This document shows, one piece after another, positions 7,360 through 28,996 of a stretch of 64,000 nucleotides of DNA. This DNA is from Nitrospirota bacterium. GTDB lineage: Bacteria; Nitrospirota; Thermodesulfovibrionia; UBA6902; JAJYJJ01. Under the pieces are notes generated by a model. The model was not told the DNA's origin. It searched no databases and was given only the letters and a program-made list of their open reading frames with translations. The translations under genes were made by a program, and so were the position numbers. The stretch spans positions 1 through 64,000 of the forward strand of contig JAJYJJ010000004.1 in the NCBI GenBank assembly GCA_021789595.1. The letters run 5' to 3'. Positions within the stretch are counted from its first letter, which is position 1. Each line of letters opens with the position of its first letter.

Positions 7360-10300
7360 TTGGTGGAAGACATCTATGCACTTTTCGAAAGGCCCAAAAA
7401 TCCAACAGAGTTTGAGGCCATAAGGGTTCGCCTTGCCTCGCCTGAGAAGATAAGGGCATGGTCCTACGGTGAGGTAAAGAAACCGGAGACAATAAACTAC
7501 AGGACATTCAAGCCGGAAAGGGATGGCCTTTTCTGTGCTAAGATATTCGGCCCGATAAAGGACTGGGAATGTATATGCGGCAAATACAAAAGGATGAAGC
7601 ACAGGGGGATTGTCTGCGATAAATGCGGTGTTGAGGTTATTCAATCTAAGGTGAGAAGGGAAAGGATGGGGCATATAGAGCTTGCTACCCCTGTCGCCCA
7701 TATATGGTTTCTCAAAGGCATTCCAAGCAGGATAGGCACACTCCTTGACATGACCATGAGGCATCTTGAAAAGGTTCTGTATTTTGAGAGTTATGTCGTG
7801 GTTGACCCTGGCAATACACCACTAAAGGAAAAAGACCTGCTTACAGAGGAAGAATATAGAAGGAAGCAAGCAGAATACAGTGATAGTTTTAAGGCCGGGA
7901 TAGGTGCAGAGGCCATAAGGGAGCTGCTGAGGGCTGTTGACCTTGATGCCCTTGCCAAGGACTTAAGGGGAAAGATGCACGAAGCCCAGTCCCTTGGTGT
8001 TAAACGCAGGCTTGCAAAAAGGCTGAGGGTTGTAGATGCCTTTAGAAAGTCTGACAATAAGCCCGAGTGGATGATACTTGATGTTATCCCTGTGCTTCCT
8101 CCTGACCTGAGGCCGTTAGTCCCGCTTGAGGGTGGCCGCTTTGCAACATCTGACCTCAATGACCTTTACAGAAGGGTGATAAACAGGAATAACAGGCTTA
8201 AGAGACTTATGGAGCTCAGGGCGCCGAGTGTCATAATCCGTAATGAAAAGAGGATGCTCCAGGAAGCGGTGGATGCCCTTTTTGACAACGGTAGAAGGAG
8301 CAAGGTCTTAAAGGCAACAACAAAGAGGCCGCTCAAATCTCTGAGTGACATGATAAAGGGGAAACAGGGCCGCTTCCGCCAGAACCTCCTTGGGAAAAGG
8401 GTTGATTATTCAGGCCGTTCTGTTATTGTTGTTGGTCCTGAGCTTAAGCTTCACCAGTGCGGTCTACCAAAGAGGATGGCGCTTGAGCTATTTAAGCCCT
8501 TTATCTTTAACAAGCTTGAGGATAAGGGTTATGTGACTACGATCAAGGCCGCAAAGAAACTTGTGGAAAAAGAAAGGCCAGAGGTATGGGATGCCCTTGA
8601 AGAGGTCATAAGGGAACACCCCGTTCTACTTAACAGGGCGCCGACCCTTCACCGTCTTGGAATCCAGGCATTTGATCCTGTGCTTGTTGAAGGCAAGGCA
8701 ATAAAACTCCATCCACTTGTCTGCACGGCCTTTAATGCAGACTTTGATGGTGACCAGATGGCTGTTCATGTCCCCCTTTCAATAGAGGCACAGATAGAGG
8801 CAAGGGTCCTTATGATGTCTGTCGGCAACATACTATCCCCCGCAAGTGGGAAACCTATCACCTTACCGACTCAGGACATGGTGCTTGGCATATATTATCT
8901 GACAAAGGTCAAAAGGGGTGTCAGGGGTGAGGGAAGGATATTTGCGGACCGTGAAGAGGTGAGAATTGCATATGACGCCAATGAGGTTACAGAGCATGCG
9001 ATGATAAAGGTAAGGATGGACGGTCAGAGGGTGGATACAACCGCTGGAAGGATTATATTCAGTGAAGTCCTTCCAGAGGAGATACCCTTTAGTATGATAA
9101 ACAAAGAGATGACCAAGAAAGAGCTCGGAAAACTCGTGGAGTACTGCTATAAGAGTGCTGGCAAAAGGGCCACTGTTGTGTTGCTTGACAGCATCGAGAA
9201 ACTCGGTTTTTATTATGCTACCCGTTCAGGCATGTCTATATGTATTGATGACATGCATGTGCCATCGAAGAAGACCCAGCTCATAAAAGAGGCAGAGCAG
9301 GAGGTCATGGAGGTACAGAAGCAATATGCAGAAGGCCTCATAACAAATGGTGAACGGTATAACAAGGTCATAGATATATGGGCGCAGGTTACAGAGAGTG
9401 TTGCAGATGAGATGATGAAGGAACTCGGTGCAGAGGATGGCAGGGAAAGGTTGACAGAGGAAGACCTAAAAGAAAGGCGGTCATTTAACAGCGTCTTTAT
9501 GATGGCTGACTCAGGGGCAAGGGGAAGCACAGCCCAGATAAGACAGCTTGCCGGGATGAGGGGCCTTATGGCAAAACCCTCAGGCGAGATTATAGAGACG
9601 CCTATTACTGCCAACTTCAGGGAGGGATTGACTCCGCTACAATACTTTATATCCACACATGGCGCAAGAAAAGGGCTTGCGGATACAGCATTGAAGACCG
9701 CCAATTCCGGCTATCTTACAAGAAGGCTCGTTGATGTTGCCCAGGATATTATAGTTGCAGAGGATGACTGCCATACCATTGATGGAATCTATATCACATC
9801 CCTTGTTGAGGGCGGAGAGATAATAGAGCCCCTTGAGGAGAGGATTATTGGAAGGGTTTCTTCTGAGACTATAAAGGACACAATAACAAAGGAGATTATT
9901 GTCAAAAAGGACCAGGAAATAGACGAGGAGGTCGCAAGGAAGATTGTGGATGCAGGCATAGATAAGGTTAAGATAAGGTCTGTCCTTACATGTCAGTCAA
10001 AACATGGCGTGTGTATAAAATGTTATGGCAGGGACCTTGCGAGGGGAGATAAGATAGAGATAGGCGAGGCTGTTGGCATCATAGCCGCACAGTCCATCGG
10101 AGAGCCTGGCACACAGCTTACCATGAGGACATTCCATATCGGTGGCACAGCTTCCAAGGTTGTAGAGCAGACAGTGCTTGAGGCAAAAAACTCAGGGAAG
10201 ATAAAGTTCATAGGGTTGAATACAGTTAGAAACAGGGAAGGCCTCCTTGTAGTAATGAATAGAAACGGCAGTATTGCTATAGTGGATGCCCAGGGCAGGG

Positions 10301-20818: not shown

Positions 20819-22657
20819 TCAGTGTCTATCTTTTCTTCCGAACAATTTCTCTTTTACCTTCCATGTGAGGGCAATACTTATAAGAAAGGCGATTGGAACG
20901 AGTAATGCTGTTGCAACAGGTTCCGGGATATGCAGGCCAAGGTATCTCAGGCCTTCGAACAAAAACTTGCTAATGCTGACTATATAATAGGTAAGCACAA
21001 TTATGGAAAGACCTTCAACCGTTTTCTGGAGCTCTACCTGTGTCTTTGCAGTCTCATCCATACTCTTTTGAAGCTCAAGGCTTTGTTCCTGCGTAATAAG
21101 GTCAACCCTGGTCCGCAGTATAGTTATAAGGTCTGTCATCTCTCTCCTTATCCCGTCTATCCGCATAGAAAGCCTCTGGTAGTCATCACCGAGACTCAGG
21201 GTAGCCTCGCGATAAAACACCGAAAGTGGAGGCAGAGACTCGGCAGATTTATCATCCCACTCCCTGAGTATATTCCTTATTACATCTATTCTTGTTGTTG
21301 TAGCTGTAAGATAATGTCTTAGCTCCTCTGCAAGGGAGGACACCTCTCCATAGGATTCACTCAGTGTGTAGAGCCAGTCCTTCAGGTCATCCGGGGATGC
21401 CTTTGGAAGGTTCAGGTTTATCGAGCCGATCTTGCCAACGAGTGATATCTCAAGCTGATTAATCCTGTCTGAGGCAAGTATATACTTCTGTCTTTCTCCC
21501 TTCAAGAGGTAGTAGCAGTTCTCAAGTTTTATTATCTGTTCAACAAGCCTTTCAAGTGCATCTTCGGATACCTTTGACGGCGCTGCTATTATTGCAATCC
21601 TGTCTCCCTCCAGCCTGCCGGATCTGAATACACTATAGAGGCTTACATTGCCAACCTTGCTCCCAAATCTCTCCTTTTCTCCGAGGTCTTCCCTCATAGC
21701 GGTTGATATGGAATTGTATACAAATATGCTTGCATCAATCATTGGCGGCCTTGGGAAGGAAAACTTCGTTCTTCCTGTAAACCATATCTCATGCGTATAG
21801 ACATCCATTCCCTCTTCAACCTTATAGAGCACATCCTTCCCATCTGTATCCTTACCAGAAACCACGCCGTAGCCGTCTTTCCATCTCTCCCTCTCAATCT
21901 TAAGCCCAAGAGTATCGATGAATTGGCGGACTTCGTTCTTGATCTGAGTCCTGTCTATTATTGAATAACTCCCAATCCTGATAACAAATCTCAGGGCATC
22001 TGAAGGTGCCTCCTTAGGAACCTCGATATGTGTTACCGTTTCCCTTGTATCTACGAGGTATTCGGGAAGTGATGTGTCACCTGCAATGTGCCTCTCGGTG
22101 ACATACAGGGCGCAGTAGCACCTGCCATACAGTTCAAGGTCCCAGCCGCAATAGGCGCATGGACATATGATGTCGGCATCCCTTTGATAGATACCTGATG
22201 CAAGCCTGCATGGACAGGAACGATAGCCGAACCTCCTCTCATTGTCAAGCAGCCCTCTTATGATGTCTGATAACACCTGCTCCTCTGGATTTACCATGCA
22301 CCCATATGTCTCGGCTATGCCCTTAACCCAAGAAAAAATTGTATCTATCTCTTCCCTGGCAAATCTCTCCTTTATCACCCTAACTGAAAGCCTTTTTGGT
22401 CCTTCAACAGGCTGAAGTTTTAATGTCCTCCTCAGGGCATTTTCATCAAAACCTATGACTGGATGCCCGTCAATCAGTGTGACTGGAAATGACCTCTGGC
22501 CTGTGAGACGGTATACCTCTGAAAGGACCTTTTCCTGCGAATCCCTATCAAGCATGTCAACAACAATTATTGTGGGACTAAGATTATTTTCCCTGAGGAA
22601 CTGTTCAACAGAATCGCACTTGTGGCATGTAGAGAGGCGGTAAAGGGTTATATCCAT
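20819..22657 (-). CDS. Glutaredoxin - ferredoxin:thioredoxin reductase - DUF3422 membrane fusion
   Basis: This 612-residue protein joins three modules. Residues 1-80 are glutaredoxin-like with active site CHKC (C11, C14) and the cis-proline in SFPVT. Residues about 95-195 match the catalytic beta subunit of ferredoxin-thioredoxin reductase, with cysteines at 120, 148, 150, 165, 167, 170, 180 and 182 (CPC, CPC and CYC pairs) for a 4Fe-4S cluster and redox disulfide. Residues about 205-612 resemble DUF3422, including a helical region ending VELQKTVEGLS and two C-terminal membrane helices (about 540-560, 577-596). Its start overlaps the rubrerythrin stop (TAATG). I infer membrane-anchored thiol reduction in stress defence. 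Confidence 0.85.
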   Translation of the reverse strand: MDITLYRLSTCHKCDSVEQFLRENNLSPTIIVVDMLDRDSQEKVLSEVYRLTGQRSFPVTLIDGHPVIGFDENALRRTLKLQPVEGPKRLSVRVIKERFAREEIDTIFSWVKGIAETYGCMVNPEEQVLSDIIRGLLDNERRFGYRSCPCRLASGIYQRDADIICPCAYCGWDLELYGRCYCALYVTERHIAGDTSLPEYLVDTRETVTHIEVPKEAPSDALRFVIRIGSYSIIDRTQIKNEVRQFIDTLGLKIERERWKDGYGVVSGKDTDGKDVLYKVEEGMDVYTHEIWFTGRTKFSFPRPPMIDASIFVYNSISTAMREDLGEKERFGSKVGNVSLYSVFRSGRLEGDRIAIIAAPSKVSEDALERLVEQIIKLENCYYLLKGERQKYILASDRINQLEISLVGKIGSINLNLPKASPDDLKDWLYTLSESYGEVSSLAEELRHYLTATTTRIDVIRNILREWDDKSAESLPPLSVFYREATLSLGDDYQRLSMRIDGIRREMTDLITILRTRVDLITQEQSLELQKSMDETAKTQVELQKTVEGLSIIVLTYYIVSISKFLFEGLRYLGLHIPEPVATALLVPIAFLISIALTWKVKEKLFGRKDRH

Positions 22658-23013
22658 TAGAGTCTCCTTATGTCAAAATCTCCGTCTGTTTCTATGAGTT
22701 CGAATGTAACACCGCACATCCTGCACCTTGTAATAGCACCTATCTCTGGATTTTCTCCAAAGCTGATCTCCCAGCCGCATACAGGACAAAGGAACCTTAC
22801 CACATAGGTGCTGTCCTTTATTGCCCTTATGACATTTATAAGGCCGTTCATATGACCGCTTTCTGCTATTGCAAGGTCAAGGAATAACTGCCGCAGTTCT
22901 TCATTTGATGCCTTTTCTGCAAAACCCTTATATCTCCGTAATGCCTCTCTTTCAAATGAAAGATTGCTCTCAAGTAGCCCAAGTAGCGATGAAAACCCCT
23001 TTACATTCCCCAT
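22657..23013 (-). CDS. Half-size rubrerythrin (ferritin-like helices plus rubredoxin-like site)
   Basis: This 118-residue protein has a two-helix ferritin-like part with SFEREALRRYKGFAE and AESGHMN (ExxH), then a C-terminal metal site CPVCGWEI...CRMCG. It resembles rubrerythrin, which reduces peroxide in anaerobes, but the four-helix core is only half length, so it should need to dimerise. It is coupled by a one-base stop/start overlap to the thiol-reductase fusion and lies 7 bases after another ferritin-like gene. Peroxide reduction is inferred. Confidence 0.78.
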   Translation of the reverse strand: MGNVKGFSSLLGLLESNLSFEREALRRYKGFAEKASNEELRQLFLDLAIAESGHMNGLINVIRAIKDSTYVVRFLCPVCGWEISFGENPEIGAITRCRMCGVTFELIETDGDFDIRRL

Positions 23014-23020
23014 GCCCGTG

Positions 23021-23209
23021 CTATGACTCTCTTATCCTTCTTAATACTGCCTCAAGCGAGGCACGGTGGTTCTGTTCATTTCTCCTTATGCCATCAATAT
23101 AGGCGACTATGAACGGGTCTTTTGACCTTTGCTGATACGCACTGTATCTTTCATCGGCCTCTATCTCAAGCCTTATGGCCTCTTCTATAAGGCTGATATC
23201 ATTATCCAT
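23021..23209 (-). CDS. Small ferritin-like (rubrerythrin-type) two-helix protein
   Basis: This 62-residue protein has helices with EEAIRLEIEADERYSAY and RRNEQNHRASLEAVL, which carry E and ExxH ligands typical of rubrerythrin/ferritin-like iron sites. It is about half a four-helix bundle. ATG 23209 is preferred because GGAGGG precedes it at good spacing; an upstream in-frame start (23245) has none. It is the first gene of the redox operon on the minus strand. Confidence 0.7.
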   Translation of the reverse strand: MDNDISLIEEAIRLEIEADERYSAYQQRSKDPFIVAYIDGIRRNEQNHRASLEAVLRRIRES

Positions 23210-23291
23210 AAAACCCTCCTCGGCCAATATTGATAATTTTACCACAATTTTCTATATCTATTTTTGCTATATGCATTAATATAATATAAGC

Positions 23292-25802: not shown

Positions 25803-27083
25803 ATGAAACAACGAGACCAGTTATTTAATAACAAACTAATACATACATCTATCGTCAATGAAGTATTTGGAAAAGACTTGTTATTGCTTACCTCAGTGAA
25901 TGAACTTTTCGAGCTTGAACTTGCTTTGATAGAATCTCGTTCCTTGTCTCAACAAGAATTATTATTACGTTCTGCATTTTTTAAATCTGTCAATGGCAAC
26001 TTAACAAACCATTATAAAATATGCCGGCCATTTGACGGTCATATTTCCGAGGATAGGTCAGCACAAACTCAAGCATATTTTCAAGTAGGAAAATATGCAA
26101 CTGGTTATGCAACTCATGGACTCTTTCCATATCGTGGAAAGTTCCATCCACAGCTTATCAAGGGTCTGCTCAATATCCTTGAGATTAAACGAGGAGATAT
26201 TGTTCTTGACCCGATGTGTGGAAGTGGAACACTAAATGTTGAAGCTTCTTTATTAGGAATTGATTCTATTGGTATTGATGTTAGCTCGTTTTGCCGATTA
26301 TTGGCGAGGGTAAAATGTGAAAGCTTGTCCTTAACGCCTGAGTATGTTGAATCGATGTCAAACAATCCAGACAAATGGTTCAATTATTTTTCAACTGGTA
26401 ATATAAATGATAAATTAAGAAAAATCAGGGAACCCGAGAAGCTCAAAATTTATGAATTAGCTTTATTAGCTTATCTTGACGCAATGGGCTATGCCCGTAG
26501 AGTTACCAAGGCAGGACACAAAGAACTATTTGAAAAAGTTTTGAAACGTTATCAAACAACCGTTCTTCAAACAATTATAAATCCAGTTATAAAATCATCT
26601 CAACTTGGAACTGCAAATATTTTGGAGGGTGATGCACGCTGTCTACCGCTTGATGATTCAAGCATTGATTGTATTATCACTTCTCCGCCGTATTCCTTCG
26701 CAATTGATTACGCAGAAAATGACGCCCCTCAACTTGCATTTCTTGGCTATAACGTAGATGAACTTCGCACTCAAATGATAGGTCTTGCCGGCAGAACTAA
26801 ACAACAAAAACTACAGCGTTATTTTGATGATATGAAAACGGTTGCTCAAGAAATTGTCAGAGTGTTAAAATCTCAGAAGTTTGCTATTATAATCATAGGT
26901 TCGAACACAAATCAGACGGGAGGAATTCGTTTAGAACAAACAATTATAGACCATTTTGATAGTTTTAATGCGCCACTTGTAAAAAGCATTCTTAAGCCTA
27001 TTAAAGGTATGAGAAATATGATAAAAGATTTGATAGATTATTTTTTGCGATCGATTTTCCCCCGGGATGTTGTCCATGCGTGA
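25803..27083 (+). CDS. Site-specific DNA methyltransferase (N4-cytosine/N6-adenine type)
   Basis: This 426-residue protein has SAM-binding motif I as LDPMCGSGT at about residues 135-143 and the catalytic motif IV TSPPY at about 293-297. TSPPY is most often seen in N4-cytosine enzymes; adenine methylation cannot be excluded. Motif I precedes motif IV, and about 130 N-terminal residues before motif I may contribute specificity. Codon use is A+T-rich compared with neighbours. The gene overlaps by 17 bases a nuclease-like gene, suggesting a restriction-modification pair. Confidence 0.85.
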   Translation: MKQRDQLFNNKLIHTSIVNEVFGKDLLLLTSVNELFELELALIESRSLSQQELLLRSAFFKSVNGNLTNHYKICRPFDGHISEDRSAQTQAYFQVGKYATGYATHGLFPYRGKFHPQLIKGLLNILEIKRGDIVLDPMCGSGTLNVEASLLGIDSIGIDVSSFCRLLARVKCESLSLTPEYVESMSNNPDKWFNYFSTGNINDKLRKIREPEKLKIYELALLAYLDAMGYARRVTKAGHKELFEKVLKRYQTTVLQTIINPVIKSSQLGTANILEGDARCLPLDDSSIDCIITSPPYSFAIDYAENDAPQLAFLGYNVDELRTQMIGLAGRTKQQKLQRYFDDMKTVAQEIVRVLKSQKFAIIIIGSNTNQTGGIRLEQTIIDHFDSFNAPLVKSILKPIKGMRNMIKDLIDYFLRSIFPRDVVHA

Positions 27084-27687: not shown

Positions 27688-27924
27688 ATGTCTCTTAAGA
27701 TTGAACAAAGACTTGATGATTTCTTTTTTACTGAATCTAAGCCGCGCATATACACAACAGGCGCTTATCTTGTCCCGATGGAAATTGTCGAAGGAAATAA
27801 AAGCCGCTTTGTCTGGGTTGTTGATCAATTTGATGATGATACATATAAAGAGGACGGACTCTGTTCCCCAAAAGTGTATGCGTTTGAAAAGGAGAAAATG
27901 TTTGAAATGGGAGCAAACCAATGA
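27688..27924 (+). CDS. Hypothetical small protein coupled to a methyltransferase fragment
   Basis: This 78-residue acidic protein (KIEQRLDDFFFTESKPRIY, then FVWVVDQFDDDTYKED) is not recognised with certainty. ATG 27688 has AAGGAG upstream. Its TGA stop overlaps the ATG of the next frame as ATGA. Its C-terminal end followed by the start of the next frame (SDVWTDLHRIKHAKNRDEHP) could once have been one methyltransferase chain split by a frameshift. Either reading fits. Confidence 0.5.
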   Translation: MSLKIEQRLDDFFFTESKPRIYTTGAYLVPMEIVEGNKSRFVWVVDQFDDDTYKEDGLCSPKVYAFEKEKMFEMGANQ

Positions 27925-28418
27925 TATCTGATGTTTGGACAGATTTGCATAGAATCAAACATGCTAAGAATAGAGATGAACACCCTTGTCAACTACCCGA
28001 AACAATTCTTGAACGTTTGATTCTAATGACGACTGACGAAGGTGATATCATTCTTGACCCTTTTAATGGAACAGGAACAACCGTAATCGCCGCAAAACGT
28101 CTTGGAAGAAAATACATTGGGATTGAACTTGACAAACAGTATGTTACTATTGCCGAAGAAAAACTTAGAAACGTTCGTCCAGATTCTCATATTGAGGGTG
28201 TTTGGGTTAGTAAGTATCTTAATGGTATAGCTACCATTAGAGATAAAGACTGGGATGTTCTTCAATCGCAATTTCACATTCCACATCCAATTCCTTTACT
28301 TGAATACGAAAATATTGTTTATAAAAACGGTAAGATTCATAAACATACACATATCATGGACAAAACAGAGAATTGTTACAGTCCAACTGGTGTTGGGCAG
28401 CAACTACTCAGATGGTGA
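27921..28418 (+). pseudogene. DNA methyltransferase C-terminal half, truncated at both ends
   Basis: The 165-codon frame matches the C-terminal half of beta-class (N4/N6) DNA methyltransferases: NRDEHPCQLPETILERLI, then motif I LDPFNGTGTTVIAA, LGRKYIGIELDKQY. No motif IV (DPPY/SPPY) is present in it or in the small gene upstream, so catalysis is unlikely. After about residue 145 the frame runs out of phase into the peptidase coding sequence, which suggests a deletion joined the two genes near 28340-28375. Confidence 0.7.
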
Positions 28419-28996
28419 TGAGTTACTATGGTGTATATGCCTCTCAATGCGATATAGCGAATAAATATATAGGCGTGGAATATTGTTGTAGTTCGCCATA
28501 TTCATGTAATGAAACAGGTTTCCTGGCACTGGGGCTTTATGATTTCGACTACTTTTCAAATTGGTGGTTTAACTTAGACTGGTCAGTCGTAAAAGGGGAA
28601 ATTGACCATAATCGTCCCTTTATTTTTGGCTGGTGGTTTCCTCAATGGATTGTGAATGGGTATGGACATTTCATGGTAGCAAGAGGCTATAAAATCGAAA
28701 ACAACATAAACTCTATTTATGTTAATAATTCACTGGGTAAAAATAATCCAGCAGGCCCCTCATTCTCTCCATTTTTCCCTCCGTCGCCATACTGGATTAC
28801 TTATAAGGACTATGGCAGCGGCTATATTAAAGGTCTGGGAAGTTATACCCATTATATGGATTATTATGGCATCAGATATATGGGAACAACATATCAACGA
28901 CATCTTCCACCCAGATATGGGCAATCCCAGATGCCAATTCCAAAGTCATCTCCAACTCCTACGCCAACTCCAACTCCAACGCCTATATATAATTGA
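28373..28996 (+). CDS. Papain-like (C39-like) cysteine peptidase, N-terminus missing
   Basis: The frame opens LQSNWCWAATTQMVMSYYGV, the cysteine-nucleophile block of papain-like peptidases, and has a later histidine in YGHFMVARGY. The C-terminus is a Pro-Thr repeat tail (SPTPTPTPTPTP). Related proteins carry a signal peptide before the NWCWAA block. Here only TTG 28373 is available, and an in-frame TAA at 28340 blocks extension, so the leader seems lost at the junction with the methyltransferase fragment. Secretion and activity of this copy are doubtful. Confidence 0.65.
   Translation: MLQSNWCWAATTQMVMSYYGVYASQCDIANKYIGVEYCCSSPYSCNETGFLALGLYDFDYFSNWWFNLDWSVVKGEIDHNRPFIFGWWFPQWIVNGYGHFMVARGYKIENNINSIYVNNSLGKNNPAGPSFSPFFPPSPYWITYKDYGSGYIKGLGSYTHYMDYYGIRYMGTTYQRHLPPRYGQSQMPIPKSSPTPTPTPTPTPIYN

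Follow-up and report, generated by a model that had tools for sequence, protein, structure and literature searches.

Ferredoxin:disulfide reductases (FDRs) are Fe-S enzymes of archaea and bacteria which are related to the catalytic subunit of plant FTR and act as ferredoxin-dependent reductases of thioredoxin-like proteins (PMC6262447, PMC7278568). Two described systems provide the framework for the protein discussed here. In the Desulfotalea psychrophila glutaredoxin/ferredoxin disulfide reductase fusion (PDB ID 7pwe), a glutaredoxin (Grx) is followed by an alpha-less FTR-like domain with the cysteine pattern CPC-CPC-CYC, both in one chain. The Methanosarcina acetivorans FDR (PDB ID 4tpu) has the alpha-less FTR catalytic fold with a tyrosine between the last two cysteines, and the same organism has a glutaredoxin-like partner protein, methanoredoxin (PDB ID 5cax). 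This FDR reportedly reduces methanoredoxin and has a rubredoxin centre within its own polypeptide; its PDB entry is listed as rubredoxin.

We analysed a 64,000-nucleotide stretch of Nitrospirota DNA (the window), which encodes a Grx-FDR core of this kind joined to a membrane segment derived from the DUF3422 family.

A Grx-FDR-DUF3422 fusion protein

The open reading frame at positions 20819-22657 on the minus strand runs from an ATG to a stop codon with no internal stops and encodes 612 residues. Its main features are as follows.

20819..22657, minus strand: gene 3, Grx-FDR-DUF3422 fusion, 612 residues (single open reading frame, Pfam and orthologues)
22412..22657, minus strand: glutaredoxin domain, residues 1-82, with the active site C11-H-K-C14 and Pro58 in an SFPV motif (Pfam and PDB similarity)
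22073..22348, minus strand: FTR catalytic-chain/FDR domain, residues 104-195, with CPC-CPC-CYC, expected to hold a [4Fe-4S] cluster and an active-site disulfide (Pfam and PDB alignment)
20948..21013, minus strand: predicted transmembrane helix 1 (TM1), residues ~549-570, after a VEGLS motif (hydropathy and alignment)
20855..20929, minus strand: predicted transmembrane helix 2 (TM2), residues ~577-601, followed by the basic tail KVKEKLFGRKDRH (hydropathy and sequence)

An earlier note on this DNA had described a CHKC glutaredoxin, an FTR domain with all of its cysteines and DUF3422 in one chain, ending in two membrane helices, and each of these elements was recovered. Three non-overlapping Pfam matches lie above their curated cut-offs: Glutaredoxin (PF00462) at residues 3-65 (E 2e-8, 34.7 bits against a cut-off of 22.9), FeThRed_B (PF02943), the FTR beta profile, at residues 109-190 (E 2e-17, 63.4 bits against 22), and DUF3422 (PF11902) at residues 323-603 (E 8e-28, 98.1 bits against 25). 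The two hydrophobic segments at residues ~549-570 and 577-601 correspond to the proposed membrane helices.

In the PDB search, residues 3-195 align to 7pwe with ~30% identity and residues 100-200 to 4tpu, while the glutaredoxin domain resembles glutaredoxin 3ic4 and methanoredoxin 5cax. The joining of a glutaredoxin to FTR, which the note had considered plausible, has already been crystallised as 7pwe. Tyr181 replaces the histidine of the plant enzyme, as it does in the aligned 7pwe and 4tpu. Across the seven full-length fusions, C11, C14 and P58 (the TVP/SFP position) of the glutaredoxin domain are invariant, as are C120 and all six FTR cysteines (C148-P-C150, C165-P-C167 and C180-Y-C182). 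By alignment and established FTR knowledge, four of these six would bind the cluster and the other two would form the active-site disulfide.

The FTR alpha (variable) subunit (PF02941) has no match in the genome, a 36-contig draft that is 99% complete, and the Synechococcus control was positive. The note had pointed out that FTR beta normally needs this subunit; its absence was borne out, but FDRs that work without an alpha subunit have been described as a class (PMC7278568, PMC6262447), so none is to be expected here. The lack of a PF02941 protein places the fusion with the FDR type and not the plant-type FTR. Other Nitrospirota encode glutaredoxin and FTR in two genes next to each other, as in loci L047 (Grx 7977-8240, FTR 7641-7973) and L045, so the first two domains of the fusion unite a pair that already exists elsewhere. 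The window genome encodes a second, standalone FTR catalytic chain (contig C32, positions 64363-64662).

The basic tail after TM2 makes it likely that the C-terminus lies inside, and the redox domains are probably cytoplasmic, because there is no evident signal sequence, the C-terminus is basic and the chemistry needs ferredoxin. A thiol reductase with membrane helices could also hand reducing equivalents through the membrane to thiols in the periplasm, in the manner of DsbD or CcdA. The fusion has two helices only, however, and no cysteine lies in or beyond them, which makes this route very improbable.

Distribution and origin of the fusion

Full-length orthologues with 52-53% identity are present in six other Nitrospirota genomes, which are all of the genomes examined (6/6) from one small class and span two genera other than that of the window. 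They are groundwater or subsurface MAGs labelled Nitrospirae or Nitrospiria in the GTDB scan, for example RBG_19FT_COMBO_42_15 and the Hainich bins. The fusion was found in 7 of the 396 phylum genomes searched; outside the small class it is restricted to the window genome, which is also the only carrier among the 47 genomes of its own order. The GTDB scan for proteins of this architecture used two peptide patterns specific to known members; it returned the six orthologues and would miss fusions of other phyla with different motifs. The viral contigs and phage records searched gave no fusion, and the plasmids searched gave no Grx-FTR.

A draft assembly of 36 contigs invites the suspicion that a frameshift, a chimera or a mis-assembly has joined unrelated genes, and the earlier note had named such an artefact as its possible undoing. 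The same full-length architecture recurs in six MAGs that belong to two other genera, which refutes this explanation, to which we assign a negligible probability. The fusion is real, conserved and unusual.

When DUF3422 domains are placed in a tree, those of the seven fusions group together as a single clade (support 100/100); its long branch lies next to standalone Nitrospirota members, a placement that comes with a long-branch warning. The pattern fits a single fusion event with either later transfer or loss in other lineages, the data not choosing between the two.

Directly downstream of the fusion, on the same strand, the window carries a gene for a Zn-dependent phospholipase C-like protein (PF00882, 20029-20781), which was not seen adjoining other fusion loci in the open reading frame tables. 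Farther along, between 25000 and 29000, the G+C content falls from ~0.45 to 0.37. Two open reading frames there look DNA-methyltransferase-like by eye (25803-27083 and 27921-28418), and a third (28373-28996) resembles a papain-like cysteine protease, also by eye. This region is possibly an acquired island.

Two half-rubrerythrin genes upstream of the fusion

Two small genes immediately upstream of the fusion were overlooked by the earlier note.

23021..23209, minus strand: gene 1, ~62 residues, half-ferritin/half-rubrerythrin-like, with an ATG at 23209 (conserved position and weak Pfam match)
22657..23013, minus strand: gene 2, 118 residues, half-rubrerythrin (E21, E51xxH54) with a four-cysteine knuckle (C76PVC79GW...C97RMC100G) (Pfam and orthologues)

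The mechanically called open reading frame for gene 1 starts at a GTG and spans 23021-23245. Gene 2 overlaps the start of the fusion gene by one base, and gene 1 lies seven bases further upstream. The three genes are adjacent and in the same order in all seven loci, in the histidine operon of the other class and between unrelated genes in the window, so the trio stays together across differing contexts. Spacing, strand and conserved order are our grounds for calling the three genes an operon, and they are probably cotranscribed.

Gene 1 has an orthologue at the same position in 7/7 fusion loci and is 47% identical to that of the other class. It aligns to positions 3-57 of the 137 of Pfam Rubrerythrin (PF02915) with an E-value of 4e-4, just under the cut-off; ExxH is present in the orthologues, and for one orthologue the PDB search gave weak matches to designed di-iron proteins of two helices. 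Gene 2 matches the same family above the cut-off, but at positions 2-60 of 137 only. All seven orthologues share its E21, E51 and H54 as well as the four cysteines, without exception, and the knuckle, with a LysW-like zinc ribbon match below the cut-off, scores better as LysW-type than as rubredoxin. Among the 198 Nitrospirota genomes searched, gene 2 is found in exactly the seven with the fusion and is absent from all others.

Neither gene 1 nor gene 2 matches Pfam Rubrerythrin over its full length, as a single chain with the whole four-helix di-iron domain would. The adjacency of the two half-sites hints at a split rubrerythrin or at a dimer like that of encapsulated ferritins. Each protein would supply one half of a di-iron site of the rubrerythrin type (E...ExxH), and pairing, either between the two or of each with itself, would probably give a four-helix di-iron protein with a rubredoxin-like four-cysteine knuckle.

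A proposed ferredoxin-powered redox-defence unit

At roughly even chances, we read the locus as encoding an inner-membrane-anchored, alpha-less FDR of the Grx-FDR type which forms a ferredoxin-powered redox-defence unit together with a split rubrerythrin. Established FTR/FDR chemistry and the order of the domains suggest the electron path. Reduced ferredoxin would deliver single electrons to the predicted [4Fe-4S] cluster of the FTR-like domain (putative ligands C148, C165, C167 and C180), the cluster would reduce the C150-C182 disulfide, and this pair would in turn reduce C11-C14 of the neighbouring glutaredoxin, which would then reduce a target on the cytoplasmic side of the membrane. As for the DUF3422-derived part, it may serve as a membrane scaffold, held in place by its two C-terminal helices, and is probably oligomeric. 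The knuckle of gene 2 could be an electron donor like a rubredoxin centre, or the product of gene 1 or gene 2 could be the oxidoreductase that is served. The most likely role of the three-gene unit would be peroxide/oxygen or thiol-stress defence of an anaerobe. The membrane-bound electron-to-thiol relay of the earlier note survives as the most economical reading, but its framing was too strong, given that alpha-less FDRs and a Grx/FDR fusion structure (7pwe) are known and that the DUF3422 part says little about ordinary DUF3422.

Several points count against this reading. The half-rubrerythrin matches are weak and cover the first half of the model only, and the four-cysteine knuckle fits a LysW-type zinc ribbon better than it fits rubredoxin. 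Ordinary full-length rubrerythrins are also encoded in the window genome, and the need for a second system beside them is unexplained. The co-occurrence of gene 2 and the fusion rests on two lineages, the class of six genomes and one further genome, and could stem from common ancestry or a single transfer event.

The fusion may instead be a ferredoxin-to-glutaredoxin reductase, tethered to the membrane, whose client is a different membrane protein, with the small genes as co-transcribed passengers or a sensor. All residues of the thiol-relay chemistry lie in gene 3, which would agree with such a division, as would the weakness of the family matches of the small proteins, whereas the strict adjacency of the three genes in every locus and the co-occurrence of gene 2 with the fusion speak for a closer tie. 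We consider this second reading possible, though clearly less probable than the redox-defence unit.

The DUF3422 segment and its likeness to CorA/Mrs2

The Pfam DUF3422 match covers profile positions 140-416 of 418, which is the C-terminal two thirds of the model. Two parts of the segment can be distinguished.

21587..22045, minus strand: divergent N-terminal part of the DUF3422 segment, residues 205-357, predicted beta-rich cytoplasmic domain (alignments and low-confidence model)
20942..21565, minus strand: long helices of the DUF3422 segment, hairpin at residues 365-465 and stalk at 477-572 running into TM1 (alignment and low-confidence model)

Alignment to 18 standalone proteins of Nitrospirota and Proteobacteria shows that the fusion segment has no N-terminal HARP motif but retains the VEGLS/TM region. 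The W-x-x-H-x-E motif of the standalone proteins is degraded in the fusions examined (H283 to G, E285 to D). C381 is invariant in the seven fusions, and a tyrosine occupies its position in 18/18 standalone proteins. Because the N-terminal motifs are missing, we call the segment DUF3422-derived and not a full DUF3422; with these motifs lost and VEGLS/TM kept, it looks like a scaffold that has lost the function of the standalone N-terminal site. The earlier note had expected the fusion to be a clue to DUF3422 function, but for ordinary DUF3422 proteins that clue is weak, as the N-terminal motif is lost and the match begins at profile position 140. No other DUF3422 was found in the window genome, and no paper on DUF3422 was found in the literature searched.

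The AlphaFold2 predictions, based on the seven-sequence alignment, are of low confidence (mean pLDDT of 46.8 for the full length and 57.6 for residues 205-612). They show a beta-rich domain, a hairpin at 365-465, a very long helix at 477-572 leading into TM1, and TM2 at 579-610. For the DUF3422-only model, the top ten Foldseek matches are all MRS2/CorA (E 3e-5, probability up to 1.0), at TM-scores of only 0.2-0.3; for the full-length model, glutaredoxins aside, MRS2/CorA follow directly after 7pwe. CorA/Mrs2 proteins have a stalk helix that runs into TM1 and a GMN loop outside, and they assemble as pentamers (PMC11919701).

The DUF3422 segment could accordingly be a CorA/Mrs2-like, redox-gated transporter or channel which is switched by the attached Grx-FDR, perhaps via Cys381. 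The Foldseek matches of both models, the predicted layout of hairpin helices, long stalk, short loop and second membrane helix, and the invariant C381 all point this way. Against it stand the low pLDDT and TM-scores, the TM1-TM2 loop without GMN, which is absent from all 34 DUF3422 sequences checked, and the sequence comparisons: hhalign of DUF3422 against the CorA profile (26 sequences) aligned the right region but was not significant (P-value 0.03, probability 1.6%), and Pfam CorA (PF01544) matches neither the fusion protein nor anything else in the genome. Taken together, we regard the redox-gated transporter or channel as unlikely, and the likeness to CorA/Mrs2 may serve as a lead, not as a sign of family membership. 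It is similarly doubtful that a CorA/Mrs2-like protein without the magnesium-selectivity motif is switched by its own Grx-FDR chemistry, or displays it at the membrane, together with a split di-iron rubrerythrin; this would be a previously undescribed membrane enzyme, either redox-gated or arrayed in a ring.

The DUF3422 profile gave no significant match to PDB sequences. RMND1/DUF155 was also considered as a relative of DUF3422 and received no support, the target being one single sequence.

Neighbourhoods of standalone DUF3422 genes

On plasmids of Enterobacter (L064), Acinetobacter (L065) and Sphingobium (L070), a standalone DUF3422 gene sits in a formaldehyde-glutathione cluster, adjoining S-(hydroxymethyl)glutathione dehydrogenase and S-formylglutathione hydrolase genes, with frmR in Enterobacter and Acinetobacter. 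It adjoins [NiFe] hydrogenase genes on Bradyrhizobium p53363 (L063) and the Sphingopyxis F plasmid (L066). In four further loci (L060, L062, L068 and L075) it lies near FAD/(2Fe-2S) opine- or amine-oxidase-like or ETF genes, which suggests a link of DUF3422 to membrane-coupled dehydrogenases. Other proteobacterial plasmid loci show no clear link beside DUF3422. These plasmid contexts were compiled with no background control and are a lead only.

Significance and comparison with known systems

If the redox-defence reading is true, ferredoxin-dependent thiol reduction takes place at the membrane in one polypeptide and is tied by gene order to a split rubrerythrin, so that a path by which ferredoxin could power oxidative-stress defence in uncultured Nitrospirota becomes open to testing. 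For DUF3422, a membrane family that is widespread, the analysis then provides two starting points: the suggested CorA/Mrs2-like scaffold and, for the standalone proteins, the formaldehyde detoxification, hydrogenase and flavoprotein oxidase neighbourhoods.

The Grx-FDR core is known; its fusion to a membrane segment appears to be undescribed in the literature searched, as does the unit of three genes with the split half-rubrerythrins. Unlike the fusion, 7pwe is a chain of 196 residues without a DUF3422 or membrane part, and the M. acetivorans FDR is soluble, with its glutaredoxin as a separate protein. Standalone DUF3422 proteins (PF11902) of Nitrospirota and Proteobacteria share the C-terminal helical region, the VEGLS motif and the two membrane helices, but they are ~420-490 residues long, keep HARP and W-x-x-H-x-E, and have a tyrosine at the position of Cys381. 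The CorA/Mrs2 magnesium channels resemble the DUF3422 segment in predicted overall layout and as the top Foldseek matches to a low-confidence model, and differ from it in having the GMN motif, with no significant sequence similarity between them. Rubrerythrins and encapsulated-ferritin-type (EncB/EncFtn) half-ferritins share the E...ExxH half-site with genes 1 and 2, and gene 2 adds the four-cysteine knuckle; in contrast to these proteins, genes 1 and 2 are two separate small genes beside a thiol reductase, each corresponding to the first half of the Pfam model.
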